Shown: positions 591-63,712 of the stretch, piece by piece | How the letters are laid out: each line of letters opens with the position of its first letter | How positions within the stretch are numbered: position 1 is the stretch's first letter | Assembly: GCA_037783545.1 (NCBI GenBank) | Contig: JBBELK010000052.1 | Location: forward strand, 2,046,001-2,110,000 | Source of the DNA: Henricia sp. BOLD:AAB3569 | Taxonomy: Eukaryota > Echinodermata > Asteroidea > Spinulosida > Echinasteridae | Reading direction: 5' to 3' | DNA length: 64,000 bases | The notes under the pieces: generated by a model | Databases searched by the model: none | The model's input: the letters and a program-made list of their open reading frames with translations, nothing else | What the model was told of the DNA's origin: nothing | Program-made: the position numbers and the translations under genes

Positions 591-1541
591 ATGGGCAGTC
601 ATTGTACCAGCTTAGTTTGGAACACAGTTGCATACTCAGGTTTTCTCACAGAACCAAATCATAACAAAGAATTGAAGTCATACATGTGTTCAATGTCTGT
701 AATTTCGTAAAATGATGCGTAGAATGCACCACGGGCATTTGGAGTATCCAACCCAACGCTGCTATGCCTTCTCGCCGGGTGCTCGTAAACCTCAATTCAA
801 CCTACACTTGAAACTTCTTTAATTACAACCCTATTAATAATAACAACTATTTTTTACAGTATACATCCTGGGACATATGATAGGCAACCAAGCGTCCCCA
901 CACCCCCACCCCCACCCCCCCCCCCGCCCCCCCCCCCCGACAGCAGTTTTTTTGAGGGGTAAAGATACGATGGATTTGTACTGTTGTCAAGCACGATTGC
1001 GTGTAACATATAAGAAATTAAAGAAAATGTCTAGGGGTAGCAAAGGGCACTACGCCCTCCCACTCCCTCCACCCCAAAGTCGGCCATGTCGGTGGGCAAG
1101 TTTTTTTTTAAATTTAAACGTGACAACGAAAGCAGAAATTGTCAAATCCAACCTCGGTACAACATTATTCAGCAGTCTTTGCTCAGTGATTTTTTAGGGT
1201 GCAATATGGTAAATTGTGGGGAACAAAATCCTTCGGGTAACTATAATAATTCATGTACATGTAAAATGAGATAGTTTAAGGGGCCGTCCAAAGTTGCCAA
1301 CATTTCGACAGTTCTACATGGAGCAATATTTTTCAAGGACGACCTCCCCCCGAAATACTACTTTTAACATTTTTCTGCCGGTACCAAAATTGTCAATATT
1401 ATACAGTGCGTGTAAAGTCCTACGCAGCTCTCGACTTCTTCCCCTTTCTTACTTCTCTAGAACCGTGAAAATGTTGACAACTTATTTGGACGGCCTCTAA
1501 GCATGTTTAATATAATCAATCCAGTTTAACAGTTATTAGGA

Positions 1542-2009
1542 GCTCGAAAAAAGGCGTGAAAGGAGGGAGGTTGGTAACTCCGGATTTGCTGGCAAGGTTC
1601 GCACTTGGTAACAAGTGTGTTATCATCAGAATGTGTATTTTTCTTATAAAAAAACAAACAAACGAAAAAAACAAAAAAACAACAACAACAATACAGAAAT
1701 AATTTACTATAGTTACTAAGTTATCATAACTTGACTTGTAAGCACTTTAGCAGCATCTGTCTCATGGCCTATTTCCACCAAATTTTATTGCAATACGTAC
1801 AATAATTTCAGAGTTGTCATAATAATCAACTATTTCCCACTCTAAAAGCGAAAGCCCAGATATTTAATTTCACAAACAGAGACGTCACAATGCATGTACA
1901 TGTGTAAGTCTTATTAACAGGCAACATGTGGGAATGCAATTATTAACAGGATGTACAAAAATCCCGAGCCTAGGAAGTGACCTATATCTCAATACATCCT
2001 TTTAACTGT
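1542..2009 (+). repeat. Direct duplicate of 5' flank (first copy)
   Basis: This stretch runs from a GCTCGAAAAAAGGCG motif to CCTTTTAACTGT and is repeated almost exactly at 2423-2894, where it continues into the promoter. Units 3, 4 and 5 have it once. It holds an AAC/AAAC-rich simple repeat and no coding potential. Confidence 0.8.
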
Positions 2010-2422
2010 TCATTTATCGCTTCCTAAAAAAATGGCTCATTTGAAAATCACAGACAATACAATCGAACTTTGATATTAACTCACCCCTTTTTTTCAACAC
2101 CCGGTTCCCCACCTATCCCACTACCCCCCCTGTCGTCTGCTAACCCTTAAGAAATATCCTACCAATCCCCCAACCCCTATCCCCATAGCCTTTAGTCAAG
2201 GCGTCCGTGTCGAGGTTTGTTTTGTGCACTGTTTTGCTAGCGCTTGAGGAAAGACTAATGTTCATACTGCATACTGTTCGTCACGAACGCGTTTACCAAA
2301 GCGTATTTGTGACCTCTGTGCTGAATAATTCAACAGCAACGGAGGTGATTAATTATTTATGAATTTTACCCAACCAGCGATAATAAAGAAAAACATAAGC
2401 CCCAAAAAACGCTATGTTAAAG
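2010..2422 (+). repeat. Intron-type segment misplaced in the 5' flank of unit 1
   Basis: The 413 bases match about 15074-15488 in the intron of unit 2 (also units 3 and 5). They include the left two thirds (from 2186) of the 337-bp inverted-repeat element found complete at 15250-15586. The piece lies exactly between two copies of the 5' flank. Unit 1's own intron has the empty site for that element near 6970, so the piece was probably donated by another unit. There is no coding potential. Confidence 0.75.
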
Positions 2423-3000
2423 GCTCGAAAAAAGGCGTGAAAGGAGGGATGTTGGTAACTCCGGATTTGCTGGCAAGGTTCGCACTTGGTAACAAGTGTG
2501 CTATCATCAGAATGTGTATTTTTCTTATAAAAAAACAAACGAAAAAAACAAAAAAACAACAACAACAACAACAATACAGAAAGAATTTACTATAGTTACT
2601 AAGTTATCATAACTTGACTTGTAAGCACTTTAGCAGCATCTGTCTCATGGCCTATTTCCACCAAATTTTATTGCAATACGTACAATAATTTCAGAGTTGT
2701 CATAATAATCAACTATTTCCCACTCTAAAAGCGAAAGCCCAGATATTTAATTTCACAAACAGAGACGTCACAATGCATGTACATGTGTAAGTCTTATTAA
2801 CAGGCAACATGTGGGAATGCAATTATTAACAGGATGTACAAAAATCCCGAGCCTAGGAAGTGACCTATATCTCAATACATCCTTTTAACTGTGTGAAGTG
2901 ACTTTCAGTGATCACCACGTGGTCCACTGAATATGCATGCACACTTTTTCCGCCCGGTGACTGCTTGTCAGTGACACTCACTGACAGTGATTATGGTGGA

Positions 3001-3088
3001 CCAATCAAAGCAGTTGGCGGGTTTCGGTAGTCACTGCTCAGGATATTCGGTGATTGAATAAAATCTAGGAGCGCTGACATCAGATATC
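3001..3088 (+). promoter_or_regulatory. Core promoter of C1q-like gene 1
   Basis: A CCAAT box at 3001-3005, a TATA-like AATAAAAT at 3057-3064 and an initiator-like TCAGTC whose A is at 3089 have textbook spacing: CCAAT starts 88 bases and TATA about 31 bases before the proposed start. The same three elements keep identical spacing in all five units. Further upstream are an E-box CACGTG (2916-2921) and a GTGACA/CACTGACAGTGA inverted motif just before the CCAAT box. The start site is inferred, not measured. Confidence 0.7.
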
Positions 3089-3170
3089 AGTCTAACAGGA
3101 AACTTTAAACTGCCAAGTGCTTCCTGAGTCAAGAACATTCAAGGCAACAGTTCACCACTGACTTGTCAAG
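3089..3170 (+). other. Non-coding first exon of C1q-like gene 1
   Basis: A proposed 82-nt 5' UTR exon, from the initiator A to CAAG, followed by a strong donor GTATGT at 3171. It contains no ATG. Joining it to the acceptor at 8502 puts CAAG directly before ATGG, giving A at -3 and G at +4, a strong start context. Length and donor are the same in all five units. Confidence 0.65.
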
Positions 3171-3459
3171 GTATGTATAGAGAATAACTTATTTACGCAA
3201 CTGTTTCAAACAGTTAAAGTCCCGCTATATCATCTGCAGATGAAACTTTTTCTGTGGAATAACAGCAACTACAGAATAATGTTATATACTGCCTTGTAGA
3301 AATTTCGGCCACACGGATGCAGGAATGCTTCAGAAAACCTTAAAAAATCTATGCATGTGTTCAATGAATGGTTTGAAACAAAATCGTTTGCAAACTTTTA
3401 AAAAAGACTCATGAAGTAAAAGGTTAGGTCACTGCAAATGATGTAATGGGACTTCAAAA

Positions 3460-5008: not shown

Positions 5009-5110
5009 ATTTAGTAAAAACGTGCTACAATGAAACTTTGACGTCCTGCCCAGGATTATAAAATGCCGTAACTTTTTATTTTGACGAATGTATAAGATTT
5101 TCTATGAAAT

Positions 5111-8502: not shown

Positions 8503-9345
8503 ATGGACATCGTATTGCCAATCGTCCTAGCAATCATGAACGTCCTGGTCAACTCTGCCCATCTCCAAGCTGCTACTACTGGGCCGTCTACTGCTACCAG
8601 TGATGACAGGGTACACCCCGTTTGCCAGACATGCTGCACAGGTCCGGCTGCAGTACCGGGCATTCCTGGCATGCCTGGCCAACCGGGTCCGTACGGACCG
8701 AAAGGAGATTTGGGTCCGCCTGGTCAGAAGGGCGACATAGAACGTGGAGAGAAGGGTGACACGGGTGAGCAGGGCGCACTTGGGGATGCTGGGCTTAAAG
8801 GAGACGATGCGGTAGGTCAGCCCGGTAAGATGGGACCACGTGGGCCACTGGGAGTAGTTGGACCAGCTGGGGAACCTGGTGTCAAGGGTGAAAAAGGGGA
8901 ACCAGGCGAGACTCCAAACGACTCACATAGTCCTGTAGCTTTTACAGTTGTGAGGACATCTCCAACGGCAGTGTCATCGTCTCACACAACTCGTTTAACC
9001 TTCGAGGAAGCCACAACGCGTTTGCCAGGTACTGACTTTGACCTTGAAACTGGTACATTTACGTGTAATGTGCCAGGCATCTATGTGTTTATGTTCTCCG
9101 GCCGCAGAAACAGTGGTCATCAATTTACAATCCACCTCTACAAGAATGACGATAGGATCGTGTCCGGTCACAGTTCGTCCGATAACACGGTCGACCATGT
9201 GTCAGGGAGCGCGGTGCTTACCCTGCAGCAGGGAGACAGGGTGTATTTGACCTTTTACGGCAATGGGTACAATCATCCAGTGTATAGATACTCTGCGTTC
9301 AGTGGATTCCTTCTTTCAAGGAACATTCCCGAGGTTTTAACTTAG
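8503..9345 (+). CDS. Secreted collagen-like C1q-domain protein 1 (intact)
   Basis: A 280-residue secreted protein of the C1q/collagen type. Residues 1-23 are a hydrophobic signal peptide, followed by a Thr/Ser-rich linker and a CxxCC motif (Cys 41, 44, 45) that could tie chains together by disulphides. Gly-X-Y triplets run from about 53 to 135 with small interruptions, one being GDIERG. The gC1q domain fills about 141-280, with the family signs FTCNVPG, GIYVFMF and a C-terminal FSGFLLS. Known relatives form trimers and bind carbohydrates, microbes or other ligands; the ligand here is unknown. I place the start at the ATG right after the CAG acceptor because the corresponding ATG is the only one shared by all copies. 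The ATG two codons upstream is absent from copy 3 and lies in the acceptor. Confidence 0.88.
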   Translation: MDIVLPIVLAIMNVLVNSAHLQAATTGPSTATSDDRVHPVCQTCCTGPAAVPGIPGMPGQPGPYGPKGDLGPPGQKGDIERGEKGDTGEQGALGDAGLKGDDAVGQPGKMGPRGPLGVVGPAGEPGVKGEKGEPGETPNDSHSPVAFTVVRTSPTAVSSSHTTRLTFEEATTRLPGTDFDLETGTFTCNVPGIYVFMFSGRRNSGHQFTIHLYKNDDRIVSGHSSSDNTVDHVSGSAVLTLQQGDRVYLTFYGNGYNHPVYRYSAFSGFLLSRNIPEVLT

Positions 9346-12269: not shown

Positions 12270-12357
12270 CCAATCAAAGCAGTTGTCGGGTTTCGGTAGT
12301 CACTGCTCAGGATATTCGGTGATTGAATAAAATCTAGGAGCGCTGACATCAGATATC
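12270..12357 (+). promoter_or_regulatory. Core promoter of C1q-like copy 2
   Basis: CCAAT at 12270-12274, AATAAAAT at 12326-12333 and the initiator A at 12358 keep the spacing found in the other units. The E-box CACGTG is at 12184-12189. Confidence 0.7.
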
Positions 12358-12439
12358 AGTCTAACAGGAAACTTCAAACTGCCAAGTGCTTCCTGAGTCA
12401 AGAACATTCAAGGCAACAGTTCACCACTGACTTGTCAAG
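12358..12439 (+). other. Non-coding first exon of C1q-like copy 2
   Basis: Proposed 82-nt exon ending CAAG before the donor GTATGT at 12440. It is nearly identical to exon 1 of unit 1 and has no ATG. Confidence 0.6.
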
Positions 12440-13542
12440 GTATGTATAGAGAATAACTTATTTACGCAACTGTTTCAAACAGTTAAAGTCCCGCTATATC
12501 ATCTGCAGATGAAACTTTTTCTGTGGAATAACAGCAACTACAGAATAATGTTATATACTGCCTTGTAGAAATTTCGGCCACACAGATGCAGGAATGCTTC
12601 AGAAAACCTTAAAAATCTATGCATGTGTTCAATGAATGGTTAGAAACAAAATCGTTTGCAAACGTTTAAAAAAGACTCATGAAGTAAAATGTTAGGTCAC
12701 TGCAAATGATGTAATGGGACTTCAAAGGTATAGGCTATACTGATTTCACCTTGCAAAATTAAATCTAAATGACTAAAATGGATAATTTATCGGTGGAAAT
12801 TACCACAGCAATGGACAGCAAGAAAACGTATACAGAAAGTGCAATTTATGTTATTTTTAGTTTATTGCAACCATAAACTAATGGAAAACCAGTTCATTTG
12901 GTAAAATGCGCGAAGCAGATTGGCCTTCGATTTTTTTCGTACCACATTTTTTTCTCAGGATAAGGCTCTCTCTGTTCCCGCTTGCTTAAAAATGGTTACA
13001 TTAAAAAATCGCAGACAATACAGCCGAACCTTGATAATAAGAGCACTGTTAATACAACATTCTGCTTATAACAAAAACAAATTTGGGTCCCATTCCTTTG
13101 GTTGTCCGTTGTTTATATTCCTCATAATACAAGGTTCCTGTTTGTTCTAACAAGATAATTTAAAGATCCAAAAGACCTGTTATTAAAGGAGCGTGACCAG
13201 ATCACATCTCCAGGCCCCATTTTTCCCATGGGTGTTGAGATTTTGATACATTATCATGTGTCATGTTTTTCGCACGCTCATTACGTATATTTTTCAAGGA
13301 CATCGTCGAAGAACCACCGATTTTTGTAAACTAATTTATCTATTCCATAAAGCACTGTAGTGATTACACCAACCTTTTGTTTTGCTTCCACATCCAAACT
13401 ATGGATGCACATTTCCTGTTTTCTTCTTATGAATGGTATTTTGGGGAGGTATTTTGTTTGAAATGCTGTCTGCACACAGATACTCATGGTAAATGACACT
13501 GCATAAAATAACCAAACTTGAAATAAGAGAAAAATCGTAAGG

Positions 13543-13612
13543 GCCTTATCGAGATTCGAACCCGAGACCTCTGACTCACTAGTCAGATGCTCTACCAGCT
13601 GAGCTATGAGGC
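13543..13612 (-). repeat. tRNA-like module a, unit 2
   Basis: On the minus strand this 70-nt sequence begins GCCTCATAGCTCAGC and ends ATAAGGC, giving an acceptor stem with one mismatch, a good D stem (GCTC/GAGC) and a B box GGTTCGAATCT. The anticodon arm does not fold with a normal 7-base loop, so I call it a tRNA-derived repeat. Equivalent copies are at 23854-23923 and 58894-58963. Confidence 0.65.
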
Positions 13613-13713
13613 ACTGTTGGTATATTCCCTCAGGTTTTCCCTGTAGACCCAATTCTTCTCTCGCTGTTGCATGGTGGCACAACTGCATGGGCACAACCTC
13701 TGGTATGGTTCCT

Positions 13714-17304: not shown

Positions 17305-18148
17305 ATGGGCATCGTGTTGCCAATCGTCCTAGCAATCATGAACTTCCTGTTCAACTCTGCCCATCTCCAAGCTGCTACTACTGGGCCGTCTACTGCTACC
17401 AGTGATGACAGGGAAGACCCCGTTTGCCAGACATGCTGCACGGGTCAGGCTGCAGTACCAGGCATTCCCGGCATGCCTGGCCAACCGGGTCCGTACGGAC
17501 CGAAAGGAGATGTGGGTCCACCTAGTCAGAAGGGCGACATGGGACCTGGAGATAAGGGTGACACGGGTGAGCAGGGGACACGGGGGAATCCTGGGCATAA
17601 AGGAGACGATAGGGTAGGTCAGCCCGGCAAGATGGGTCCACGTGGGCAACCGGGAGTAGTTGGACCAGCTGGGGAACCTGGTGTCGGGGGTCAAAAAGGG
17701 GAACCAGGCGAGACTCCAAACGATCGTACATAGTCCTGTAGCTTTTACAGCTGTGAGGACATCTCCAACGGCAGTGTCATCGTCTCACACAACTCGTTTA
17801 ACCTTCGAGGAAGCCACAACGCGTTTGCCAGGTACTGACTTTGACCTTGAAACTGGTACATTTACGTGTAATGTGCCAGGCGTCTACGTGTTTATGTTCT
17901 CCGGCTGCAGATACCCCCGTCAGAACCTCTACATCCACCTCTATAAGAATGACGATAGGATCGTGACCGGTTACAGCTCGACCGATGACACGTACGACCA
18001 GGTGTATGCGAGCGCGGTGCTTACCCTGCAGCAGGGAGACAGGGTGTATTTAGGCTATAACGGCAAGGCGCACAGTGAGTCATCGTATGGATTTATTGCG
18101 TTCAGCGGATTCCTTCTCTCAAGGAACATTCCCGAGGCTCTAACTTAG
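17305..18148 (+). pseudogene. Collagen-like C1q-domain copy 2 (one frameshift)
   Basis: The length is 844 bases, against 843 in the intact copies. Signal peptide, CxxCC and collagen region read in frame from the ATG after the acceptor. One extra base at about 17720-17727, at the collagen/gC1q border, then shifts the frame to a stop at 17731-17733. The rest of the gC1q domain stays open in the next frame to 18148, including FTCNVPG, GVYVFMF and FSGFLLS. The collagen part also has substitutions of the repeating glycine (PPS and DDR). It may be a young pseudogene, a haplotype-specific defect or a sequencing error. Confidence 0.8.
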
Positions 18149-18302
18149 ACTGGGGCCATATTTGTAACATATGTAACCTTGAAAAAATGCTTCATTGGTA
18201 AACGTTTCAAATGTATCAATCAGTTTTATTGAATGAGGTGACACCATGCCAATCCTAATGTTAATTAGTTAGACTCGTCTACAAGTGACCGCTCGTTCAC
18301 TT

Positions 18303-18565
18303 TTGTGTTTATGTTCTCCGGCCGCAGAAACAGTGGTCATCAATTTACAATCCACCTCTACAAGAATGACGATAGGATCGTGTCCGGTCACAGTTCGTCC
18401 GATAACACGGTCGACCATGTGTCAGGGAGCGCGGTGCTTACCCTGCAGCAGGGAGACAGGGTGTATTTGACCTTTTACGGCAGGGGGTACAATCATCCAG
18501 TGTATAGATACTCTGCGTTCAGTGGATTCCTTCTTTCAAGGAACATTCCCGAGGTTTTAACTTAG
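18303..18565 (+). pseudogene. Orphan 3' end of a gC1q domain (type 1)
   Basis: This encodes the last 86 residues of the gC1q domain, from VYVFMF-type sequence to the stop. It is almost identical to 9083-9345 of gene 1 (one clear difference: FYGNG there, FYGRG here). It is joined abruptly to the 3' UTR of copy 2 after CTCGTTCACTTTT. It has no promoter, signal peptide or collagen part, so it is a recombination remnant rather than a gene. Confidence 0.85.
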
Positions 18566-22554: not shown

Positions 22555-22642
22555 CCAATCAAAGCAGTTGGCGGGTTTCAGTAGTCACTGCTCAGGATAT
22601 TCGGTGATTGAATAAAATCTAGGAGCGCTGACATCATATATC
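22555..22642 (+). promoter_or_regulatory. Core promoter of C1q-like gene 3
   Basis: CCAAT at 22555-22559, AATAAAAT at 22611-22618 and the initiator TCAGTC with A at 22643 keep the family spacing. Upstream CACGTG is present. Confidence 0.7.
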
Positions 22643-22724
22643 AGTCTAACAGGAAACTTCAAACTGCCAAGTGCTTCCTGAGTCAAGAACATTCAAGGCA
22701 ACAGTTCACCACTGACTTGTCAAG
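22643..22724 (+). other. Non-coding first exon of C1q-like gene 3
   Basis: Proposed 82-nt exon ending CAAG before the donor GTATGT at 22725. It has no ATG. Splicing to 41158 restores CAAGATGG. The intron would be 18.4 kb because of the insertions. Confidence 0.6.
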
Positions 22725-36474: not shown

Positions 36475-37662
36475 GTCACTCTCGGCACGTTGGAGTGGAG
36501 AAACTATTGCATGGCTGATGCCATCCTTCCTTTTAAAAGAGCAGGTTGCACAGCACATAGCTGCACTTGTCGCAAAGTTTATCATGATCAAAACTAATAG
36601 TCCATGGGCCAGAGGGGCCCACCGTGCACCCCCCCCCCCTAGAATTGACGAAACAACATTTTTCTAGTAGGTTTGCATCTGTACTTCATTTTAACACTTG
36701 TTAACATTCGATTAGCTGGGACTCACTACTCGAATTTGGATGTTACATGAACCCCCAAGCCCAAGACTTTTGACGGCCAACTTAGGGTTAGGGGAAATTC
36801 AAATACTCTTTGTTCCGTCAAAAATTGCCGTCAAAATGTAGGTCTTGGTGAGCTCTACACAGTGGTATATGACTCATGTCTTTTAATTCAGTACGCAGGT
36901 CAACAGAGGTCAAAAGGTAAATTTTAAAGGGAGTTGCGCAAAATTTGGTAATCCTCGCCATTACACAAAAATTTACACGTACGTGCACCCTCCTAGAAAT
37001 GACGAAACAACATTTTTCTAGTAGGTTTGCATCTGTACTTCATTTTAAGACATGTTAACACGAGATTAACCGAGACTTACTAGTTGATTTTGGATGTTAC
37101 ATGAACCCTAAAGCCCAAGACTTCACGGCCATTTTAGGGTTAGGGGAAATTCAAATATCCATTGTTCTGTCAATAATTGTCGTAGAGATACAAGTTACCC
37201 CTCAAAATGTAGGTATTGGTGAGTTCTACACAGTGGTACATGATTTATGTCTTTTAATTTAGTAAGTAGGTCAACAGAGGTCAAAAGGTCAATTTTAAAG
37301 GGAGTTTCGCTAAATTTGGTAATCCTCGCCATTCAACAAACGTGTAAATTAATAAAGTTTTACTACCTTATTTATACATGATATTATTCTGTCTCAACGT
37401 ATTTTATTCGCCATATAAATACAGGTTAATTTGATTATAGTGGTAGAAAGGCTTTCTGCCACAACGTGGGAAATAGGTGGGTCAATATAACACCAAAAAT
37501 ACCCCAACATAAAAAAAAATCATTGTCGAAGGGGTGGAGACAATGACTTCTCTAATATAACTACTGATGTCAAATATAGCTAATTTTATTATTCATTAAT
37601 GTATATAACATGATACTGTGGCAAGACTGCCTGCACCAGCCACCATATGAGCCGCTAAGGCA

Positions 37663-37695
<33 letters not shown>
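37663..37695 (+). repeat. Poly-G run (33 bases) in the left arm
   Basis: Thirty-three consecutive G, then T and six more G. The right arm has at the same place (about 39810-39820) ordinary sequence with only short C runs, so the run expanded after the arms formed. It could form quadruplex structures or be an assembly artefact. Confidence 0.85.
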
Positions 37696-37696
<1 letters not shown>

Positions 37697-37824
37697 GGGG
37701 GGCACTCTGCCAAAATTGCCTCCCTGACAACCTGCACTTCTAGGGCTGTTTTTAAGACATGGGATTCAAAAAGTCTGCTCAGGCACATGCAGGTTTAATC
37801 AGGATAAAAAACCTAACAAACTTG

Positions 37825-39692
37825 GCCATTCCGGCCCAGCCTGAAGTCATCAAGCCCCAGCCCAATGCCCTCCCAGCAAAAACATGAAGTCCAAAAGCCC
37901 AGCCTGAAGCCCCAAAGCCCAGCCTGAAGCCACCACAGCCCAACACGAAGCCATCCCGACCCAGCCCAAAGCTACCCCCGGCCCAGCCCAAAGCCCTCTG
38001 GTATTGATTTGGGCTGGGCCGGGTTGGCTTCGGGCTGGGCTGGGATGGCATAGGGCTGGGGTTTTGGGGTTTGGGCTGAGCTGGGAGGGCATTAGGCTTG
38101 GCTGAGATGGCTTCGGGCTTGGCTGGAATGGCTTCAGATTGGGCCGGGATGGCTTCAGACTGGGCCGGGATCTTCGGGCTGGGCTGGCATGGTTTCGGGC
38201 TAGACAGGGATGGCTTCGGGCTGGGTTGGGATGGCTTATAGCTGGGCTGGGATGGCGTCGGGCTGGGGTTTTGGGGTTTGGGCGTAGCTGGGAGGGCATT
38301 GGGCTTGGCTGGGATGGCTTCGGGCTAGACAGGGATGGCTTCGGGCTGGGTTGGGATGGTTTAGAGCTAGGCTGGGATGGCTTCGGGCTGGGGTTTTGGG
38401 GTTTGGGCGTAGCTGGGAGGACATTGGGCTTGGATGGGATGGCTTCGAGCTGGGCCAGGATGGCTTCAGGTTGGGCCGGGATGTCTTCAGACTGGGCTGG
38501 GATGGCCTCGGGCTGGGCTGGGATGGCCTCGGGCTGCGCTGGGAGGGCCACGGGCTGGGCTGGGATGGCCACGGGCTGGGCTGGGATGGCCTCGGGCTGG
38601 GCTGGGATGGCCTCGGGCTGCGCTGGGAGGGCCACGGGCTGGGCTGGGATGGCCACGGGCTGGGCTGGGATGGCCTCGGGCTGGGCTGGGAGGGCCAAGG
38701 GCTGGGCTGGGAGATCCTCGGGCTGGGCTAGAATTGCTTAAGTTGGGCCGGGATGGCTTCGGGCTGGGGTTTGGGGGTTTGAGCTAAGCTGGGAGGGTAT
38801 TGGGCTTGGCTGGGAGGGCATTGGGCTTGGCTGAGATGGCTTCAGGCTGGGCTAGAATGGCTTCCCTTGGGCCGGGATGGCTTCAGACTGGGCCAGGATG
38901 GTTTCGGGCTGAGGTTTTGGGGTTGGGACGAGCTGGGAGAGCGTTGAGCTTGACTGAGATGTCTTTGGGCTGGGCCAGTATGGCTTCAGATTGGGCCTGG
39001 ATGGCTTGAGGTTGGGCCGGGATGGCTTCAGACTGGGCTGGGATGGCTTCGGGCTGGGTCAGGATGGCTTCAGGCTGGGCCGGGATGGCTTCGGGCTTGG
39101 CTGGTATGGTTTCTAGCTAGACAGGGATGGCTTCGGGCTGGGTTGGGATGGCTTATAGCTGGGCTTGGATGGCGTCGGGCTGGGGTTTTGGGGTTTGAGC
39201 GTAGCTGGGAGGGCATTGGGCTTGGCTGGGATGGTTTCGGGCTGGGCTAGGATGGCTTAGAGCTGGGCTGGGATGGCTTCGGGCTGGGCCGGGATGGCTT
39301 CGGGCTGGGACGGGATGGCTTCGGGCTGGGACGGGATGGCTTCGGGCTGGGACGGGATGGCTTCGGGCTGGGACGGGATGGCTTCGGGCTGGGACGGGAT
39401 GGCTTCGGGCTGGGACGGGATGGCTTAAGGCTGGGCCGGGATGGTTTTGGGCTCGGCTAGTATGGCTTCGGGCTAAACCGGGATGGTTTCTGGCTGAAAC
39501 GGGATGGCTTTGATGGCTTCAGGCTAGGCTTTGATGGCTTCAGGCTTGCCTGGCATGGCTTCGGGCTGGGCTGGGATGTCTTTAGGCTGGGTTTTCGGGT
39601 TTGGGCATAGCTGGGATGGCATTGAGCTTGGCTGGGATGGCTTCGGGCTGGGCTAGGATGGCTTAGAGCTGGGCTGGGATGGCTTCATGCTG
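37825..39692. repeat. 21-bp minisatellite core
   Basis: Degenerate copies of a 21-bp unit like GGGATGGCTTCGGGCTGGGCT fill about 1.87 kb. From 37850 to about 38005 the units are in the opposite orientation and flip at a hairpin near 38000-38030. A GGGTTTTGGGGTTTGGGC spacer recurs about every 100-200 bases in places. Six near-perfect units lie at about 39290-39425, and an 84-bp four-unit block repeats near 38527-38700. Because 21 is a multiple of three, frames stay open on both strands. Confidence 0.9.
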
Positions 39693-41157
39693 AAGTTTGT
39701 TAGGTTTTTATCCTGATTAAACCTGCATGGGCCTAACCAGACCTTTTGAATCCCATGTCTCAAATACAGCCCTAGAAGTGCAGGTTGTCGGGGAGGCAAT
39801 TCTGGTAGAGTGGCCCACCCTGCCTTAGCAGCTCATATGGTGGGTGGTGCAGCCAGTTTTGCCACAGTATCATGTTATACACATTACTGAACAATAGAAT
39901 TAGCTACATCTGACATCAGCAGTTATATTAGAGAAGTCATTGTCTCCACCCCATCCATGCCTGTAAGGTTTTTTTTATGTTGGGGTATTTTTGGTGCTAT
40001 ATTGACCCACCTATTTAATTCCCACGTTGTGGCAGAAAGCCTTTCTACCACTATAATCAAATTAACCTGTATTTATATGGCGAATAAAATACGTTGAGAC
40101 AGAATAATATCATGTATAAATACGGTAGTAAAACTTTATTAATTTACACGTACAGTTTTGTTGGATGGCGAGGATTACCAAATTTAGCGAAACTCCCTTT
40201 AAAATTGACATTTTGACCTCTGTTGACCTACTTACTAATTTAAAAGACATAAATCATGTACCACTGTGTAGAACTCACCAATACCTACATTTCGAGGGGT
40301 AACTTGTATCTCTACGACAATTTTTGACAGAACAATGGATATTTGAATTTCCCCTAACCCTAAAATGGCCGTCAAGTCTTGGGCTTTAGGGTTCATGTAA
40401 CATCCAAAATCAACTAGTAAGTCTCGGTTAATCTCGTGTTAACATGTCTTAAAATGAAGTACAGATGCAAACCTACTAGAAAAATGTTGTTTCGTCATTT
40501 CTAGGAGGGTGCACGTACGTGTAAATTTTTGTTTAATGGCGAGGATTACCAAATTTTGCGCAACTCCCTTTAAAATTTACCTTTTGACCTCTGTTGACCT
40601 GCGTACTGAATTAAAAGACATGAGTCATATACCACTGTGTAGAGCTCACCAAGACCTACATTTTGACGGCAATTTTTGACGGAACAAAGAGTATTTGAAT
40701 TTCCCCTAACCCTAAGTTGGCCGTCAAAAGTCTTGGGCTTGAGGGTTCATGTAACATCCAAATTCGAGTAGTGAGTCCCAGCTAATCGAATGTTAACAAG
40801 TGTTAAAATGAAGTACAGATGCAAACCTACTAGAAAAATGTTGTTTCGTCAATTGTAGGGGGTGGGGGGGGTGCACGGTGGGCCCCTCTGGCCCATGGAC
40901 TATAATTATGTTGCTGACGTTAAAAACGAGTGTCCTAGATTCCCATCAAGGATAATTTAAGAGTAGCATTTTTCTTGATTAATTTCGCTGATAATTTCAA
41001 ACACGTGTTTGCTTTCTATGATGATAAAAAAGCGGACAATTGAAGGATGATCCCAAAATGCATTCAAATTTGCGCTAAAACGAATGCAGTAAAACCTATA
41101 TTTAAACAGAACTGGAAAGTCAACATAATCTTTTTTACTGTGCGATTTTGTCTGCAG

Positions 41158-42000
41158 ATGGGCATCGTGTTGCCAATCGTCCTAGCAATCATGAACTTCC
41201 TGTTCAACTCTGCCCATCTCCAAGCTGCTACTACTGGGCCGTCTACTGCTACCAGTGATGACAGGGCAGACCCCGTTTGCCAGACATGCTGCACAGGTCA
41301 GGCTGCAGTACCAGGCATTCCCGGCATGCCTGGCCAGCCGGGTCCATACGGACCGAAAGGAGATGTGGGTCTACCAGGTCAAAAGGGAGACATGGGACGT
41401 GGAGAGAAGGGTGACACGGGTGAGCCGGGAGCACGTGGGAATCCTGGGCCTAAAGGAGACGATGGGGTAGGTCAGCCCGGTAAGATGGGTCCGCGTGGGC
41501 CACCGGGAGTAGTTGGACCAGCTGGGGAACCTGGTGTCAAGGGTCAAAAGGGGGAACCAGGGGAGACTCCAATCGACTCCCATAGTCCTGTAGCTTTTAC
41601 AGTTGTGAGGACATCTCTAACGGCAGTGTCATCGTCTCACACAACTCGTTTAACCTTCGAGGAAGCCACCACGCGTTTGCCAGGTACTGATTTTGACCTT
41701 GAAACTGGTACATTTACGTGTAATGTGCCAGGCGTCTACGTGTTTATGTTCTCCTGCACCAGATACTCTGGTCAAAGCATCTACATCCACCTCTATAAGA
41801 ATGACGATAGGATCGTGTCCGGTCTCAGCTCGTCCGATGACCCGTACGACCAGGTATCAGTGAGCGCGGTGCTTACCCTGCAGCAGGGAGACAGGGTGTA
41901 TTTGGGCTTTTACGGCAGGGCGTACAGTGAGTCATCGTCTAGATTCACTGCCTTCAGCGGATTTCTTCTCTCAAGGAATAATCCCGAGGCTCTAACTTAG
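41158..42000 (+). CDS. Secreted collagen-like C1q-domain protein 3 (intact)
   Basis: A 280-residue protein with a signal peptide (1-23), a Thr/Ser linker and CxxCC at 41-45. Gly-X-Y runs from 53 to 135, with single-residue breaks at GRG (80-82) and GVG (103-105). The gC1q domain is about 141-280, with LTFEEA, FTCNVPG at 186-192, GVYVFMF at 192-198 and FSGFLLS at 266-272. The pattern fits the C-terminal half of the C1q signature; the N/D expected earlier in it is not at its place. An extra Cys at 200 is not in the other copies. The frame is open 37 codons further upstream, but that part is intron with the acceptor TCTGCAG in it. Role: secreted trimeric recognition protein, by family; ligand unknown. 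Confidence 0.9.
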
Positions 42001-43251: not shown

Positions 43252-44318
43252 ACGTATCTATTACTATATGATTTTTCTTCATGAGAAACATCCTGTCGCT
43301 AATTTGACATAGTTATATGCAGACTTTGACCTTTATACATGTATGTAATGTTTGCGAATTTAGTATATTCACGACTAATTGTGGCTGCTTTCTTGCTAAT
43401 AAATATTACTCTACTAAAGCAATACATTCAAAGATTCTGGTCTTGAATCAAATGCTTGATATTCATGTTTGTACCTAGGCTTGCAGCTACATTGGTAAAT
43501 CGCTGTTGGTGGTAACAATTGGCGCTCAGTTCCACCAGCCGTCACTGAAAAGAAAATTCGGCCTTTCCAGCTGCACTGATGTCAAGGGGAAATACCTCTG
43601 CACATTTTAAAAGTTGTTTTGTTTACTACAAAAGCAGAAGAAAACATGGGATGAGCAAAAAATCCAATCGACTGTATCAGGATTCGAGCCCGAGACCTTT
43701 GGCAAATCGGGCCAGCTAAGTTATGAGGCACAGTATATACTTTCCTTCCTCAGGTTTTCCTTAATAACCCAACTTTGTTTTTTTGGTGATGGATGATTGC
43801 GCAACTGAGCCAAGTAATAAACGCAATATATCATACGGTGCATAATCACCATGGAAATGAAAGAAAACAAAGAAACATGGCCCGACAGAAAAATCACACG
43901 GTCCTCATTGGGATTCGAACCCGAAACCTCCGCCAAACTACATGGCAGTTGTTGTACTAGCTCAGTTTGGAACGCAGTTGCACACTCTCAGGTTTTCTCA
44001 CAGAACCAAATCACAACAAAGAATTGAAGTCATACATGTGTTCAATGTCTGTAAATTCGTAAAGATATGCTTAGAATGCACCACGGGGCATTTGGAGTTT
44101 CCAACCCCACGCTGTAATGCCTTCTCGCAGTGTGGTCATGAACCTCAATTAATTCACCCCGGCGGTTCCTGGGTCATAATCCCTGAACATAATCACTTAA
44201 TCATTACTTAATAATTGGGAGGGGTAGTTATTTCTCTGTAGGGCTTGTTAAGCTCACGTGGTAGCCAATCCCAATCAGTGAGAAACAACTGCACTACTGT
44301 GTTTGGAGACCACCAGTT

Positions 44319-44388
44319 GGCTGCATAGCTCATGGTAGGGCGTCTGCACGTTAAGCAGAAGGTCTGTGGTTCGAATCCCGGTGGAGCC
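44319..44388 (+). repeat. tRNA-like sequence (Asn-GTT-like loop)
   Basis: Seventy bases with a 7-bp acceptor stem (GGCTGCA/TGGAGCC, one mismatch), a five-pair anticodon stem TCTGC/GCAGA around ACGTTAA and a B box GGTTCGAATCC. The T stem pairs poorly and the base before the anticodon is C, not T, so it is more likely a SINE head or pseudogene than a working tRNA. It lies in a stretch (about 44150-44460) that other units lack. Confidence 0.55.
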
Positions 44389-46674: not shown

Positions 46675-46762
46675 CCAATCAAAGCAGTTAGCGGGTTTCG
46701 GTAGTCACTGCTCAGGATATTCGGGGATTGAATAAAATATAGGAGCGCTGACATCAGATATC
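46675..46762 (+). promoter_or_regulatory. Core promoter of C1q-like copy 4
   Basis: CCAAT at 46675-46679, AATAAAAT at 46731-46738 and the initiator A at 46763 keep the family spacing. Upstream, the E-box has changed to CACGTA and about 50 bases have been inserted before the CCCGGTGACTG block, so distal control may differ from the other copies. Confidence 0.65.
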
Positions 46763-46844
46763 AGTCTAATAGGAAACTTCAAACTGCCAAGTGCTTCCTG
46801 AGTCAAGAACATTCAAGGCAACAGTTCACCACTGACTTGTCAAG
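46763..46844 (+). other. Non-coding first exon of C1q-like copy 4
   Basis: Proposed 82-nt exon ending CAAG before GTATGT at 46845. It is nearly identical to the other first exons and has no ATG. Confidence 0.6.
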
Positions 46845-52977: not shown

Positions 52978-53821
52978 ATGGGCATTGCTTTGCCAATCGC
53001 CCTAGCAATCATGAACTTCCTGGTCAACTCCACCCATCTCCAAGCTGCTACTACTGGGCCGTCTACTGCTGCCAGTGATGACAGGGCAGACCCCGTTTGC
53101 CAGACATGCTGCACGGGTCCGGCTGCAGTACCAGGCATCCCTGGCATGCCCGGCCAACCGGGTCCGTACGGACCGAAAGGAGATGTGGGTGGGGAAGGTC
53201 AGAAGGGCGACATGGGACGTGGAGAGAAGGGTAACACGGGTGAGCAGGGAGCACGTGGGAATCCTGGGCCTAAAGGTCTCCTTTGGGGTAGGTCAGCCCG
53301 GCAAGATGGGTCCACGTGGGCCACCGGGAGTAGTTGGACCAGCTGGGGAACCTGGTGTCAATGGTCAAAAGGGAGAACCAGGGGAGAATCCAATCGACTC
53401 CCTTAGCCCTGTAGCTTTTACCGTTGTGAGGACATCTAGCACGGCAGTGTCATTGTCTCACACAACTCGTTTAACCTTCGAGCAAGCGACGACGCTTTTA
53501 CCAGGTACTGACTTTGACCTTGGAACTGGTACATTTACGTGTAATGTGCCAGGCGTCTACGTGTTTGTGTTCTCCGCCCTGAGATACAATGGTCAGCAAC
53601 TTACAATCCACCTCTACAAGAATGACGTTTTGATCGTGTCCGGTGAGAGCTCGTCCGATAACACGGGCGACCAGGTGTCAGGGAGCGCAGTGCTTACCCT
53701 GCAGCAGGGAGACAGGGTGTATTTGAACTTTTATGGCAAGGGGTACAATAATCAAGCGTCTAGATACTCTGCGTTCAGTGGATTCCTTCTTTCAAGGAAC
53801 AATCCCGAGGTTTCAACTTAG
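52978..53821 (+). pseudogene. Collagen-like C1q-domain copy 4 (one frameshift)
   Basis: The length is 844 bases. Signal peptide, CxxCC and the first half of the collagen region are in frame from the ATG after the acceptor. At about 53277-53287 the usual AAAGGAGACGATGGGG is replaced by AAAGGTCTCCTTTGGGG, one base longer. The rest of the collagen part and the whole gC1q domain (FTCNVPG, GVYVFVF, FSGFLLS) then read in the next frame to a stop at 53819-53821. Everything else looks functional, so the defect may be recent or a sequence error. Confidence 0.8.
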
Positions 53822-57377: not shown

Positions 57378-57465
57378 CCAATCACAGCAGCAGGCGGGTT
57401 TCTGTAGTCACTGGTCAGGATATTCGGCGATTGAATAAAATCTAAGAGCGCTGACATCAGATATC
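57378..57465 (+). promoter_or_regulatory. Core promoter of C1q-like copy 5
   Basis: CCAAT at 57378-57382, AATAAAAT at 57434-57441 and the initiator A at 57466 have the family spacing. CACGTG is present upstream. Confidence 0.7.
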
Positions 57466-57547
57466 AGTCTGACAGGAAACTTCAAACTGCCAAGTGCTTC
57501 CTGAGTCAAGAACATTCAAGGCAACAGTTCACCACTGACTTGTCAAG
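57466..57547 (+). other. Non-coding first exon of C1q-like copy 5
   Basis: Proposed 82-nt exon ending CAAG before GTATGT at 57548. No ATG. Confidence 0.6.
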
Positions 57548-58893
57548 GTATGTATAGAGAATAAATGATTTACGCAACTGTTTCCAACAGTTAAAGTCCC
57601 GCTATATCATAAGCAGATGAAACTTTTTCTGTGGAATAACAGCAACTACAAAATAATGTTATAAACTGCCTCGTAGAAATTTCGGCCACACAGATGCAGG
57701 AATGCTTCAGAAAACCTTTAAAAATATATGCATGTGTTCAATAAATGGTTTGAAACAAAATGGTTTGCAAACTTTTAAAAAGACTCATGAAATAAAATGG
57801 TAGGTCACTGCAAGTGATGTAATGGGACTTCAAAGGTATAGGCTATATACTGATTTCACCTTGCAAAACTAAATCTGAATGACTAAAATGGATAATATAT
57901 GTTTACTAAAGTTATCAGCATTTATCGGTGGAAATTACCACAGCAATGGACAGCAAGAAAACGTACAGAAAGTGCAATTTATGTGATTTTTTAGTTTATT
58001 GCAACTATAAACTATTGGAAAACCGATTTATTTGTTATAAAGCGCGGAGCAGATTGGCTTTCGATTTTTTTCGTACCACATTTTTTCTCTCATGATCAGG
58101 TTTTCTCTGTTCCTGATTATTTCATTGCATATATACTAATTATAAGTATATTAAAAGAGACCATTCGTTTGGAATTTTAGGGACGTCATTTTATTTTTGG
58201 TGGCTCTTTCCACTTGTTGAGAACAAGATTAGTTGTTGAGCAAATGATTTTCCGCTTCCTCAAAAATTGTTTCATTAAAATGATAATAAGAGCACTGTTA
58301 ATACAACATTCTGTTTATAACAAGAACATATTTAGGTCCCATTCCTTTGGTTGTCCGTTGTTTATATTCCTGATAATACAAGGTTAATGTTATAACAAGG
58401 TAATCTAAAGGTCCTAATGTAGACCTGTTATTAAAGGAGCGTGACCAGATTACATCTTAAGGCCCGTTTTTCCCATGGGTGTTCAGATTTTGATACATTA
58501 TCATGTGTCATATTTTTTTCATTACCATTCTGAAATTTCGCACGCTCATTACGTATATTTTTCAAGGACATCGTCGAAGAAACACTGATTTTTGTAAACT
58601 AATTTATAATTCCATAAAGCACTGTAGTGATTACACCAACCCTTTTGTTTTGCTTCCACATCCAAACTATGGATGCACATCTCCTGTTTTCTTCTTATAA
58701 ATGGTATTTTGGGGAGGTATTTTGTTAGTTAGAACGAAATCCTTGTTTTTTTCGAAAACAAAATATGGTGACGCTCCTTTACGGAGGTTTGACGGTAAAT
58801 GTTCTTGTTTGAAATGCTGTCTGAACACAGATACTCATGGTAAATGACACTGCATAAAATAACAAAACTTGAAATAAGAGAATAATCGTAAGG

Positions 58894-59359
58894 GCCTTAT
58901 CGAGATTCGAACCCGAGACCTCTGACTCACTAGTCAGATGCTCTACCAGCTGAGCTATGAGGCACAGTTGGTATATTCCCTCAGGTTTTCCCTATAGACC
59001 CAATTCTTCTCTCAGTGTTGCATGGTGGCGCAACTGGGCACAACCTTTAGTATGGTGCCTGATCACCATACCAGCTGGTAAAGCATCTGCATAGCGAGTC
59101 AAAGGTCTCAGGTTCGAATCCCGATAAGGCCCTTACGAATTTTCTCTCATCCCAAGTTTGGTTGTTTCATTTCAATGGTGATCAGACCAGATGTTGTGTT
59201 CGTTTAATACTTTGCCCAGTTGCGCCACCATGCAACACCGAGAAAAGAATTGGGTCTATAGGGAAAACCTGAGGGAGTATACCAACTGTGCCTTATAGCT
59301 CAGCTGGTAGAGCATCTGCCTAGTCAGTCAGTGGTCTCGGGTTCGAATGACTATAAGGC
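58894..59359. repeat. tRNA-like modules a, b and c, unit 5
   Basis: Module a is on the minus strand (58894-58963). Degraded module b (about 59061-59130) and module c (59290-59359) are on the plus strand. Module c here has a perfect 7-bp acceptor stem GCCTTAT/ATAAGGC but a broken T stem, so it is still unlikely to be a working tRNA. Confidence 0.6.
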
Positions 59360-60576: not shown

Positions 60577-61475
60577 CCACCCCTTTTTTTCAACACCCGG
60601 TTCCCCACCTATCCCACTCCCACCCCCCTGTCGTCTGCCAACCCTTAAGAAATATCCTACCAATCCCCCAACCCCTATCCCCATAGCCTTTAGTCAAGGC
60701 GTCCGTGTCGAGGTTTGTTTTGTGCACTGTTTTGCTAGCGCTTGAGGAAAGACTAATGTTCATACTGCAGACTGTTCGTCACGAACGCCTTTACCAAAGC
60801 GTATTTGTGACCTCTGTGCTGAATAATTCAACAGCAACGGAGGTGATGAATTATTCATGAATTGTACCCAACCAGCGATAATAAAGAAAAACATAAGCCC
60901 CCAAAAACGCTATGATAAAGGCTGTCGGGGCGGACAGTCCGTGCGTGCTAGTCTTTCCTCAAGCGTTGGTAAAACTGACTGCGCGCGAATGGTAATCACG
61001 GCAGCCTTGACTAAAGGCTACTATCCCCACCGATCGGCCACCCCCTTCGGCCAACCCATTTTACTTCCACGCGGCCCGTTTCCTCTCTCCCCCAGTTTCC
61101 TCCTGCCATGCCACACCCCAGAGTTTGCCTACGTCTAGCCCCTATACTTGCCCCACTTTTTTCCCACTTACGCAAGCTTTCTCCACACCCGGTTCCCCAC
61201 CCGTCTTCCCACTCTCGTCTTCCAAACCTTTCAGCCACTCCAGTATTTCCGCCCCTGTCATTCAGACTCCTAACCCCATCCCGACGCTCGTTCCCCGCCC
61301 GCTACCTCCACCCCTCGCCCCATCCCTCCACCCCCACCCAGTCCCCATCCGCCCATACTCGTCCCCCATCCCAGCCTCCCCACCTGTCACCTCAGTGCCC
61401 CTCCCGTCAATCCAACCCTCACCTTCCCTTTCCCCACCCTATCTCCTACCCCTGTCTCTCCACCCATATTTTGTT
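60577..61475. repeat. Pyrimidine-rich tract, unit 5 intron
   Basis: The same C/T-rich tract as in units 2 and 3, interrupted by the MITE at 60684-61020. Proline-rich frames are compositional. Confidence 0.7.
60684..61020. mobile_element. 337-bp MITE with 17-bp perfect ends, unit 5
   Basis: Same element as 15250-15586, complete, with TAGCCTTTAGTCAAGGC ends and CTATCCCCA flanks. Confidence 0.85.
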
Positions 61476-62801
61476 GAAACTATAAAACAAAATAAACAAT
61501 ATATAAACAATTCATGCGGACGGCCGGACGCAAATCCGCATTGCATAAGCTCGCATTTGCTTCGCAATTTGGCGAGAATACCTAATTGTTGTCTAAATGA
61601 ATGATGTATACAATGGATTGCCTATGCAGCTCTCTGAATGACGCAGTTGTTAGCCATCTTGGTCCAGGCTCAACAAGTCCAGGCCTAGACATTATCACAA
61701 AATAAGACGGAAAGTCATGCAAAGGAAATTAGAAAAAAAAGCTTTCATGTTAATTATCAGAAGTAAAGATAAATTAATGACCAAAAGTAAATATAGGTTT
61801 TCCCGCACATTTTCAAACTTTTTCCATTTAAATTCATAACCGGTTTACTTCAAACTGTATAGCTCAGGTTGGTTCCTTGCACTGCTCTCTTGATTCCGAA
61901 CCTTCAACAAACATTACATGTCGATGTTATATAGGCCGACGTCAGGCAACCATAATGTAAAAAAATTAATGTAAAGTATGAAGACGTAGAAATATCCAAA
62001 GTTATTATGCATTCAATTAAGTTACGAATTCAAATGAAATATGTGAACTTGATTTTCTAATGACGAAATTGTTCCATTCTTCGTACGCTTGGTAACTGCT
62101 GACGACCAAATCAACTATTTTGTTTAGAAAAAATGTGAAAACGTACGAAATGGTTTGGACAAATACGAACATGAGCAACCAATTACAAAATTAAACATGT
62201 TAAATGCATAGTTCTGACTTTTCGAGACTGACGAAATTGAAGTTAACCGGTTATGAGTTTGAATGAAACATTTTTTAAAATGTGCGGGAAACCCTTAATT
62301 AAAGGTAAACATGGGGGAAATGACGTTTGTATAACATTTTTTTTGAAAACCTCAAAATAACGAAAACATTGGGTGAAAAACACCCTCGAAACCCAAACGT
62401 GCTCATACATGTGTAATTTTGCAATTTGTCACTCTTGGCACGTTGGAGTCGAGAAACTATTGCATGGCTGATGCCATCCTTCCTTTTAAAAGAGCAGGTT
62501 GCACAGCATATAGCTGCACTTGTCGCAAAGTTTATCATGATAAAAACTAATTATGTTGCTGACGTTGAAAACAAGTGTTCAAGATTCCCATCAAGGATAA
62601 TATCAAGCAGCATTTTTCTTGATTAATTTCGCTGATATTTTCAAACACGTGTTTGCTTTCTATGATGATAAAAAAGCGGACAATTGAAGGATGATCCCAA
62701 AATGCATTCAAATTTGCGCTAAAACGAATGTAATAAAACCTATATTTAAACAGAACTGGAAAGTCAACATAATATTTTTTACTGTGCGATTTTGTATGCA
62801 G

Positions 62802-63642
62802 ATGGGCATCGTGTTGCCAATCGTCCTAGCAATCATAAACTTCCTGCTCAACTCTGCCATCTCCAAGCTGCTACTACTGGGCCGTCTACTGCTACCAGTG
62901 ATGACAGGGCAGACCCTGTTTGCCAGACATGCTGCACGGGTCAGGCTGCAGTACCAGGCATTCCCGGCATGCCTGGCCAACCGGGTCCGTACGGACCGAA
63001 AGGAGATGTGGGTCCATCTGGTCAGAAGGGCGACATGGGACGTGGAGAGAAGGGTGACGCGGGTGAGCAGGGGACACGGGGAATCCTTGGCCTAAAGGAG
63101 ATGATGGGGTAGGTCAGCCCGGGAAGATGGGTCCACGTGGGCCACCGGGAGTAGTTGGACCAGCTGGGGAACCTGGTGTCAAAGGTCAAAGGGGGGAACC
63201 AGGGGAGACTCCAATCGACTCCCTTAGCCCTGTAGCATTTACAGTTGTGAGGACATCTAACACGGCAGTGTCGACGTCTGACACAACTCGTTTAACCTTC
63301 GAGGAAGCCACAACGCGTTCGCCAGGTACTGACTTTGACCCTGAAACTGGTACATTTACGTGTAATGTGCCAGGCGTCTATGTGTTTATGTTCTCCGGTC
63401 ACAGAAACCGTGATGTGGAACTCCTCATCCACCTCTATAAGAATGACGATAAGATCGTGTCCGGTTACAGTTCGCCCGATAACACGCAAGACCAAGTGGC
63501 AGGGAGCGCGGTGCTTACCCTGCAGCAGGGAGACAGGGTGTATTTGACCTTTAGAGGCAGGGCGACCAGTGCCACATCGTCTGGATACACTTCGTTCAAT
63601 GGATTCCTTCTTTCAAGGAATAATCCCGAGGCTCTAACTTAA
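62802..63642 (+). pseudogene. Collagen-like C1q-domain copy 5 (two frameshifts)
   Basis: The length is 841 bases, two fewer than the intact copies. One C is missing in the signal-peptide end at about 62857 (TGCCATC for TGCCCATC), and one G is missing in the collagen region at about 63079 (CGGGGAAT for CGGGGGAAT in copy 2). Both are in short homopolymer runs. The three frames together carry every part of the family: signal peptide, CxxCC, collagen triplets, and gC1q with FTCNVPG, GVYVFMF and FNGFLLS, with the stop at 63640-63642. Decide between pseudogene and sequence error before using this copy. Confidence 0.78.
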
Positions 63643-63712
63643 ACCACGGTTATATTTTTTTAAACTTAACCGTTATAGCAAATGTTTCATTGGTAAACGT
63701 TTTAAATGTATC

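Follow-up and report, generated by a model that had tools for sequence, protein, structure and literature searches.

Our best explanation of the 64,000-nucleotide stretch of DNA analysed here (the window; positions 2,046,001 to 2,110,000 of contig C52), and one that we consider probably correct, is that it forms the middle part of a tandem array of 13 two-exon collagen-C1q genes. Each gene would carry its own promoter, parts of the units have been recombined, and the products would be diversifying recognition proteins that are most likely directed against microbial surfaces. The mitochondrial code points to an echinoderm as the host.

Layout of the tandem array

When the window was compared with itself, long direct matches, present on one strand only, were found to span positions 588 to 63712. 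Because the copies are mostly 75–99% identical to one another across hundreds to thousands of bases, chance cannot explain the repeat. The self-comparison reveals a tandem direct repeat and not fewer units, and it bears out the original prediction that all copies lie on one strand. That prediction had also envisaged a five-copy array. Five promoter/leader exons and five coding exons are indeed present in the window (Table 1), but the array itself is larger, with 13 promoters alternating with 13 coding exons in about 195 kb of the contig. (Note that units 1 to 5 of the window correspond to g6 to g10 of the array.) Judged from splice motifs, from which the two-exon structure was derived, each gene in the array consists of a promoter block, an 82-nt leader that lacks an ATG and stops at a donor, a single intron of 3.9 to 18.4 kb, and a single coding exon whose ATG sits directly at the splice acceptor. 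The promoter/leader and the coding exon are kept across units, and the introns turn over.

Table 1 Features of the window
Feature	Position	Strand	Remarks
Unit 1 (g6) promoter block and leader exon	3001..3170	+	CCAAT 3001; AATAAAA 3057; initiator A 3089; leader 3089-3170; donor GT 3171
Unit 1 (g6) coding exon	8503..9345	+	Intact, 280 aa, collagen and C1q
Unit 2 (g7) promoter block and leader exon	12270..12439	+	Initiator A 12358; leader 12358-12439
Unit 2 (g7) coding exon	17305..18148	+	Single +1 frameshift near codon 141
Orphan second half of C1q exon	18302..18562	+	Amino acid identity to unit 1, 97.7%; lies about 150 bp past unit 2 stop
Unit 3 (g8) promoter block and leader exon	22555..22724	+	Initiator A 22643; leader 22643-22724
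Inserted element in unit 3 intron	36598..40902	.	Inverted ends of ~1.35 kb, tandem repeat inside
Unit 3 (g8) coding exon	41158..42000	+	Intact, 280 aa
Unit 4 (g9) promoter block and leader exon	46675..46844	+	Initiator A 46763; leader 46763-46844
Unit 4 (g9) coding exon	52978..53821	+	Single +1 frameshift in collagen part, common to g2 (outside window)
Unit 5 (g10) promoter block and leader exon	57378..57547	+	Initiator A 57466; leader 57466-57547
Unit 5 (g10) coding exon	62802..63642	+	Two -1 frameshifts

Consistent with the earlier proposal that each copy has its own promoter, a promoter-like block is found in every unit; 178 of the 207 alignable columns from -120 to +86 are invariant across all 13 units, as against 271 of 584 columns outside. 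The block had been described as CCAAT, TATA and initiator at identical spacing, and the five initiator positions, each with the context ATCAGTCT, proved exact; the CCAAT box lies at -88 in all five window promoters. What lies at -32 in all five, however, is AATAAAA; TATAAA is absent from all five window promoters, and thus the "TATA" is an A/T-rich box only. Across the array, CCAAT at -88, the initiator and the splice donor are present in all 13 units, and AATAAAA at -32 in 12 (g4 has AATATAA). The 82-nt leader contains no ATG and ends in AAG/GTATGT in each of the five window units.

The prediction of one collagen-C1q exon after each promoter holds at all five positions, as indicated by the splice acceptor TGCAG/ATG that opens each window coding exon and by matches to Pfam. 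The C1q family (PF00386) scored above cut-off in all five exons (E 1e-23 to 3e-25, with broken exons scored as frame pieces) and the collagen family (PF01391) in four (copies 1, 2, 3, and 5); in copy 4, the two frame pieces reach 26.3 and 24.4, short of the cut-off at 27.2. From its N-terminus, which is hydrophobic as judged by eye, the product runs through a cluster of cysteines (CQTCC) and a collagen stretch to a C1q domain. With N-terminal collagen repeats and a C-terminal C1q domain, it matches collagenous C1q-domain proteins (C1q-like type I) in both domains. By sequence, its relatives in the PDB are adiponectin, C1q, cerebellin, and Caprin-2. A Foldseek search with a structure model of moderate confidence (mean pLDDT 64.5, with part of the last variable segment described below under 50) returned the C1q-family fold, with a best E of 3.8e-08. 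The original prediction left out that reading frames are broken in three of the five window exons and in 4 of the 13 array exons (intact frames, 2/5 and 9/13, respectively).

A second array of the family is present on contig C32. In the one C32 intergenic stretch that was read, the promoter boxes are the same as those on C52 and lie at the same distances; the promoter block is 92.9% identical between the two contigs over 210 bp, and identity falls to 76–79% across the ~700 bp that contain it. Moreover, in two paralogues with proteins that are just 43–46% identical, the leader exon still shows 82% identity. We consider it less likely that C32 is the other haplotype of the C52 array, and we treat it as a probable second array because the paralogues L006 and L017 are 93.7% identical over 2.1 kb and because the array exons are about 80% identical at the protein level.

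Recombination and turnover of the units

At the level of sequence, comparison of introns with exons shows that the 5′ and 3′ parts of units have recombined, a finding that is new relative to the original prediction. In these comparisons, which exclude intron windows under 70% identity as non-homologous and use summed, rounded silent counts, introns of units 2 and 3 differ by 0.94% and silent exon sites by 12.1% (Fisher, 1.1e-17); the corresponding values are 3.0% and 11.2% for units 2 and 5 (Fisher, 2.4e-07) and 3.3% and 13.5% for units 3 and 5 (Fisher, 1.7e-09). The silent excess for units 1 and 4 is not significant (p 0.079). That silent sites diverge by 11 to 13.5%, far more than introns at 1 to 3.3%, means that selection by itself does not account for the exon differences of units 2/3, 2/5, and 3/5. 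Across the array, 17 of 78 unit pairs diverge by less than 4% in the last 1.2 kb of intron, with 1000 or more bases aligned there, and 12 of these 17 pairs, which are not independent of one another, show 18–25% silent divergence in the second half of the C1q domain. The reverse is seen with g1 and g8, whose coding identity is 99.1% and whose 3′ flanks diverge by 0.2%, yet the last 1.2 kb of their introns are non-alignable; their long match begins 27 bp upstream of the ATG. Near-identical introns with strongly different C1q exons, together with this one reverse pair, argue that the two parts have been recombined.

A PHI-type test for recombination gave p = 0.002, 0.0025, and 0.02. A run-length test for conversion gave p 0.0096 with all sites and was not significant with silent sites only (global p 0.35). 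Note that in the pair g3 and g10 divergence climbs within the intron already about 2.6 kb 5′ of the exon, which argues that exchange extends beyond the exon. In addition, three orphan second-half C1q fragments are present in the array, each 3′ of a complete gene. The unit 3 intron has about 13.8 kb where unit 2 has about 270 bp; judging from unit 2, where the site is empty, the element inserted here (Table 1) seems to be flanked by a TAA target duplication. (Of 10 chosen ORFs, mostly in the unit 3 intron insert, none scored above cut-off in Pfam.)

The locus had been called actively expanding. The presence of 13 units, and of a duplicated block in C52 whose divergence is 0–0.7% per kb along 18 kb, fits that description, and the low divergence of this block suggests recent turnover of the array. 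An alternative, which we regard as unlikely, is that the assembly is in part artefactual, with two haplotypes of a smaller array placed end to end in one contig. Such stacking would account for the exons of g1/g8, g2/g9, and g5/g13 being 99–100% alike, for the 96–99.96% match of the flanks 3′ of g5 and g13 over about 10 kb, and for a 21.5 kb block in C52 that is 98.7% identical; moreover, near-identical copies on contigs C136 and C308 (99.8% over 3.4 kb) indicate that both haplotypes may locally be represented in the assembly. However, the supposed haplotypes would go from 0% divergence to non-homologous within a few kb, the segment at 1940–1958 kb of C52, left of g1, is without counterpart in the stretch read, and g4, g6, g7, and g12 find no near match across the two halves (at best 91.6 to 94.2% coding identity), with g6 and g12, which are 99.8% alike, having to share one haplotype. 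Even if stacking had occurred, several distinct genes per haplotype would be left.

Positive selection on the C1q domain

Codon models show, as far as sequences can, that the second half of the C1q domain is under strong positive selection. We used 16 distinct exons, namely 8 of the 13 from C52 (g1, g9, g11, g12, and g13 were left out as near-duplicates), 7 of the 17 C32 matches, and one from C832; of the 10 C32 matches outside the set, L010 has a shifted frame, L021 is partial, L006 is a distant paralogue, and 7 others were left out. Comparison of models M1a and M2a with these 16 exons gave 2dlnL 170.9, and depending on the data set the positively selected class in the second half has an omega of 3.5 to 7. 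Of 15 selected codons, 14 fall within three variable segments (domain positions 59–67, 76–88, and 110–119) and one, position 12, lies outside. Signals elsewhere are weak (collagen part, p 0.049; first 51 C1q codons, p 0.009). Note that the codon models were custom-written and assume no recombination, a problem that segment-wise trees lessen but do not remove.

If constraint were merely relaxed, most copies would be decaying and the second half of the C1q domain drifting, without positive selection. The frameshifts in 4 of 13 exons and a mean omega of 1.05 across the C1q domain are in line with this. We nevertheless judge it highly improbable, since the second half of the 13 intact-frame exons alone (the 16 minus g2, g7, and g10), analysed on its own tree, still gave 2dlnL 66.6; omega was 4.9 in a class of 21% of codons and 0.05 in one of 38%. 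Moreover, the nine unbroken C52 frames are 275–280 codons long with no early stop, and much of the C1q domain is invariant or nearly so across copies.

Proposed function and relation to known systems

We propose that transcription of each gene starts at its own promoter, that the leader is spliced onto the coding exon, and that the protein is secreted and would assemble into collagen-stalked C1q trimers and then larger bundles. The three variable segments would bind differing targets, most likely microbial surfaces, and the products would act as opsonins or in complement-like recognition. Units would keep a common promoter and gain new combinations of binding surfaces through unequal crossing-over and gene conversion, with broken copies and orphan exon tails as by-products of exchange. 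Innate recognition is the most likely role of the family and would agree with the positive selection seen in the C1q second half. The same anatomy and selection would be expected of a secreted C1q family that diversifies outside immunity, for instance in the recognition of gametes or of self or as a structural matrix protein, with ligands that are not microbial; immunity is not the only setting in which such segments come under positive selection, and invertebrate C1qDC proteins are described in shell and byssus formation in the available text of a review (PMC10672478). We consider such a role quite unlikely, as the expansion of C1qDC genes in bivalves has been linked to microbial pattern recognition, according to the available part of another paper (PMC6835236). 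A further variant of the recognition-family reading, which we think very unlikely, is a cassette system, in which a common 5′ control module (promoter, leader, intron, and signal region) would stay alike from unit to unit, and C1q second-half cassettes, including the three orphans, would be copied from one unit to another by gene conversion in the germ line or conceivably also in somatic cells of the immune system. If true, the cassette array would be a C1q counterpart to cassette-based diversification of recognition proteins.

Like C1q and adiponectin, the present products have a collagen stalk; complement C1q itself is built as such a stalk bearing a C1q head. The genes described here share the C1q domain and its fold with vertebrate complement C1q (A, B, and C chains) and with adiponectin, CTRP, and cerebellin; unlike complement C1q, they form a variable gene array with no sign of three fixed chain types. 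Within echinoderms, the Sp185/333 (SpTransformer) protein of the purple sea urchin is not known to contain a C1q or collagen domain, and the present products, with both domains, differ from it. The two families share two-exon genes in a tandem cluster, although the first exon here is non-coding. Segmental duplication, conserved flanks, and proposed gene conversion, which the consulted sections of the Sp185/333 report describe, are also common to both. In the sea urchin cluster, most pairs differ more in their introns than in their exons (the three D1 genes are similar in both parts), and gene fragments were not found (PMC3091723). In contrast, many pairs here are closer in their introns than in their exons, 4 of 13 frames are broken, and there are three fragments.

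With bivalve C1q expansions the array shares tandem copies and positive selection at few C1q sites. In Crassostrea virginica, 476 tandemly expanded C1q-domain genes have been described, whose products, in the portions of the report consulted, have coiled coils or are stalkless, with none found to contain collagen (PMC6835236). The copies described here differ from that architecture in carrying collagen; the conserved non-coding leader exon and the greater similarity of introns than exons in many pairs likewise set the array apart from the oyster genes. Among the open-licence titles and abstracts that were listed, none concerned an echinoderm collagen-C1q array, which is not proof of absence.

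The 15 selected codons, 14 of them in three segments, are candidates for a role in binding. A large, recently reshuffled collagen-C1q family with one promoter type and strongly selected segments, in a probable echinoderm, would show that a stalk-and-head design like that of complement C1q can give rise to a diversified repertoire, which would then not be limited to the coiled-coil or stalkless kinds of C1q protein found in oysters.

Organization of the array

The original prediction described a five-copy tandem array, and self-comparison of the window showed + strand direct repeats spanning 588-63712, with no match between the window edges (1-587 and 63713-64000) and the rest of the window. 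Five units do lie within the window, which corresponds to C52:2046001-2110000, but the array on C52 (contig JBBELK010000052.1) has 13 units (g1-g13, of which g6-g10 are window units 1-5); promoters and full-length coding exons, 13 of each, alternate on one strand from C52:1,960,524 to approximately 2,154,942. The genome profile covered the 740.7 Mb assembly (2104 contigs) and gave at least 69 C1q matches.

Features of the window
Feature	Unit	Position	Strand	Remarks
Initiator A	1	3089	+	
Initiator A	2	12358	+	
Initiator A	3	22643	+	
Initiator A	4	46763	+	
Initiator A	5	57466	+	
Coding exon start	1	8503	+	
Coding exon start	2	17305	+	
Coding exon start	3	41158	+	
Coding exon start	4	52978	+	
Coding exon start	5	62802	+	
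Orphan second half of coding exon		18302-18562		87 codons
Inserted element	3, intron	36598-40902		inverted ends of ~1.35 kb, 90% identical
tRNA-like sequence	2, intron	13540-13614	-	odd anticodon
tRNA-like sequence	3, intron	23851-23925	-	odd anticodon
tRNA-like sequence	5, intron	58891-58965	-	odd anticodon
tRNA-Asn-like gene	upstream of 4	44318-44390	+	

All five promoter-like blocks lie, and all five coding exons begin, where predicted, each exon with an ATG directly after the acceptor. Of the proposed CCAAT, TATA and initiator at fixed spacing, CCAAT at -88 and an A/T box at -32 are present in every window unit, but the box reads AATAAAA and TATAAA occurs in none of the five blocks; on C52, AATAAAA is found at -32 in 12 of 13 units, g4 having AATATAA. 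In the 13-unit alignment 178 of 207 columns are invariant from -120 to +86, versus 271 of 584 outside (Fisher 6e-25, a guide only because the units are related). The window leaders are 82 nt long, lack an ATG and end 3' in a consensus donor. Note that upstream of the unit 1 promoter there is a partial duplication (1542-2009 and 2423-2892, 97% identical) that lacks a core promoter.

With frame pieces used where frames are broken, C1q scores above the Pfam cut-off in all five window exons and collagen in four, copy 4 falling just under. Copies 1 and 3 have intact 280-aa frames; copies 2 and 4 each carry one +1 change and copy 5 two -1 changes. On C52 nine of 13 frames are intact, g7 and g10 having their own lesions and g2 (C52:1976410) and g9 (unit 4) sharing a frameshift within a duplicated 21.5 kb block. 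The unit 4 frameshift (52978-53821, near codon 100), in the collagen part, resembles a short local inversion or template switch. Downstream of g4, g7 and g10 lie three orphan fragments, each derived from the second half of that exon's C1q-coding type.

The element in the unit 3 intron contains a tandem repeat (about 37998-39700), and unit 2 has the corresponding empty site, comparison with which suggests that TAA was duplicated as the target. Ahead of the element, from 27060, lies a further ~9 kb of DNA. The intronic tRNA-like sequences are possibly tRNA-derived repeats.

Exchange and turnover among units

Units 2, 3 and 5 share an intron that diverges by 0.9 to 3.3%, and silent sites of their coding exons are 11 to 13.5% apart; the change points of the three pairs lie +179, +382 and +599 nt relative to the ATG. 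Units 1 and 4 have their change point at -282 nt and show no significant silent excess of exon over intron (p 0.079). Among the 78 pairs of the 13 units, 17 can be aligned immediately before the exon over 1000 bases or more and diverge there by <4%. The exon is also near-identical in five of these, and the C1q second half shows 18-25% silent divergence in 12, which are not independent because g5, g11 and g13 are near-copies. The g1/g8 pair has the reverse pattern: the coding exon is 99.1% identical and the 3' flank 0.2% apart, the last 1.2 kb of intron is unalignable, and the long match starts 27 bp before the ATG. Among the five window exons a PHI-type test gave p 0.002, 0.0025 and 0.02 at three window sizes; a run test was significant with all sites (0.0096) and not with silent sites only (0.35).

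The copies of the 21.5 kb block (C52:1965627-1987064 and 2088217-2109641) are 98.7% identical; divergence per kb is 0-0.7% over 18 kb, then 1.3, 2.3 and 4.8%, reaching 14% (55/382) in the last exon. Turnover thus appears to be recent, and the points of exchange fall both within introns and within the exon. Part of the apparent recent turnover may instead reflect stacked haplotypes, as the right flank is partly duplicated: the flanks of g5 and g13 (C52:2014006-2024111 and 2158533-2170412) are 96-99.96% identical, a likeness that could stem from stacked haplotypes or from segmental duplication. The g13 flank contains an internal 1.49 kb duplication.

Selection on the C1q domain

Across the five window copies, the second half of the C1q domain has a pairwise dN of 0.12-0.26, the first half one of 0.02-0.09. 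Site models M1a and M2a (our own implementation) gave, for the second half, 2dlnL 21.2 and omega 3.8 in the window copies, and 84.0 (16 exons) and 66.6 (13 intact exons) with omega 4.8-4.9. Eight distinct C52 exons gave 27.1 (omega 3.5) and 16 distinct exons, over 138 codons, 170.9, with a class comprising 13.5% of codons that has omega about 7. The controls gave p 0.009 (first 51 codons; 4% of codons) and p 0.049 (collagen part). Posteriors exceeded 0.95 at 15 of the 138 codons (domain positions 12, 59, 62-65, 67, 76, 81, 84, 88, 110, 114, 116 and 119); all except position 12 fall within segments 59-67, 76-88 and 110-119. A predicted model, with mean pLDDT 64.5 and values below 50 in part of the last segment, agrees in fold with structures of the C1q family (best E 3.8e-08) and places five of the 15 in strands and ten between strands.

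Other sequences of the assembly and known systems

In mitochondrial cox1, AAA, ATA and AGA/AGG occupy positions that in animals encode asparagine, isoleucine and serine, respectively; its codon use is that of the echinoderm code (NCBI table 9), and the host is therefore most probably an echinoderm. One contig (C2104; 16,221 bp) has one cox1, and another (C955) has three at intervals of 16,221 bases, which would fit mitochondrial copies joined head to tail.

Contig C32 has 17 C1q matches, and nine of ten sequences read belong to the family of the C52 array. Eight begin with an ATG at an acceptor of this type, seven of them open for 278-280 codons and L010 for 176; the ninth, L021, is a partial match only. 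In the one intergenic stretch read, promoter and leader are 92.9% identical over 210 bp with equally spaced boxes; ~700 bp including this block are 76-79% identical, with short matches only beyond. In two distant paralogues the leader exon is 82% identical over 88-98 bp and protein identity is 43-46%.

Collagen-bearing C1q proteins are reported in echinoderms, among others (PMC11312191). The oyster C. virginica has a tandem, positively selected C1q family in which collagen-bearing members were not found (PMC6835236), unlike the window copies, where collagen is present. The gene plan of the C52 array is similar to that of the sea urchin Sp185/333 cluster, which is described as having introns more diverse than exons in most pairs and no gene fragments (PMC3091723), whereas in units 2, 3 and 5 exon divergence exceeds that of the intron and C52 holds orphan fragments.
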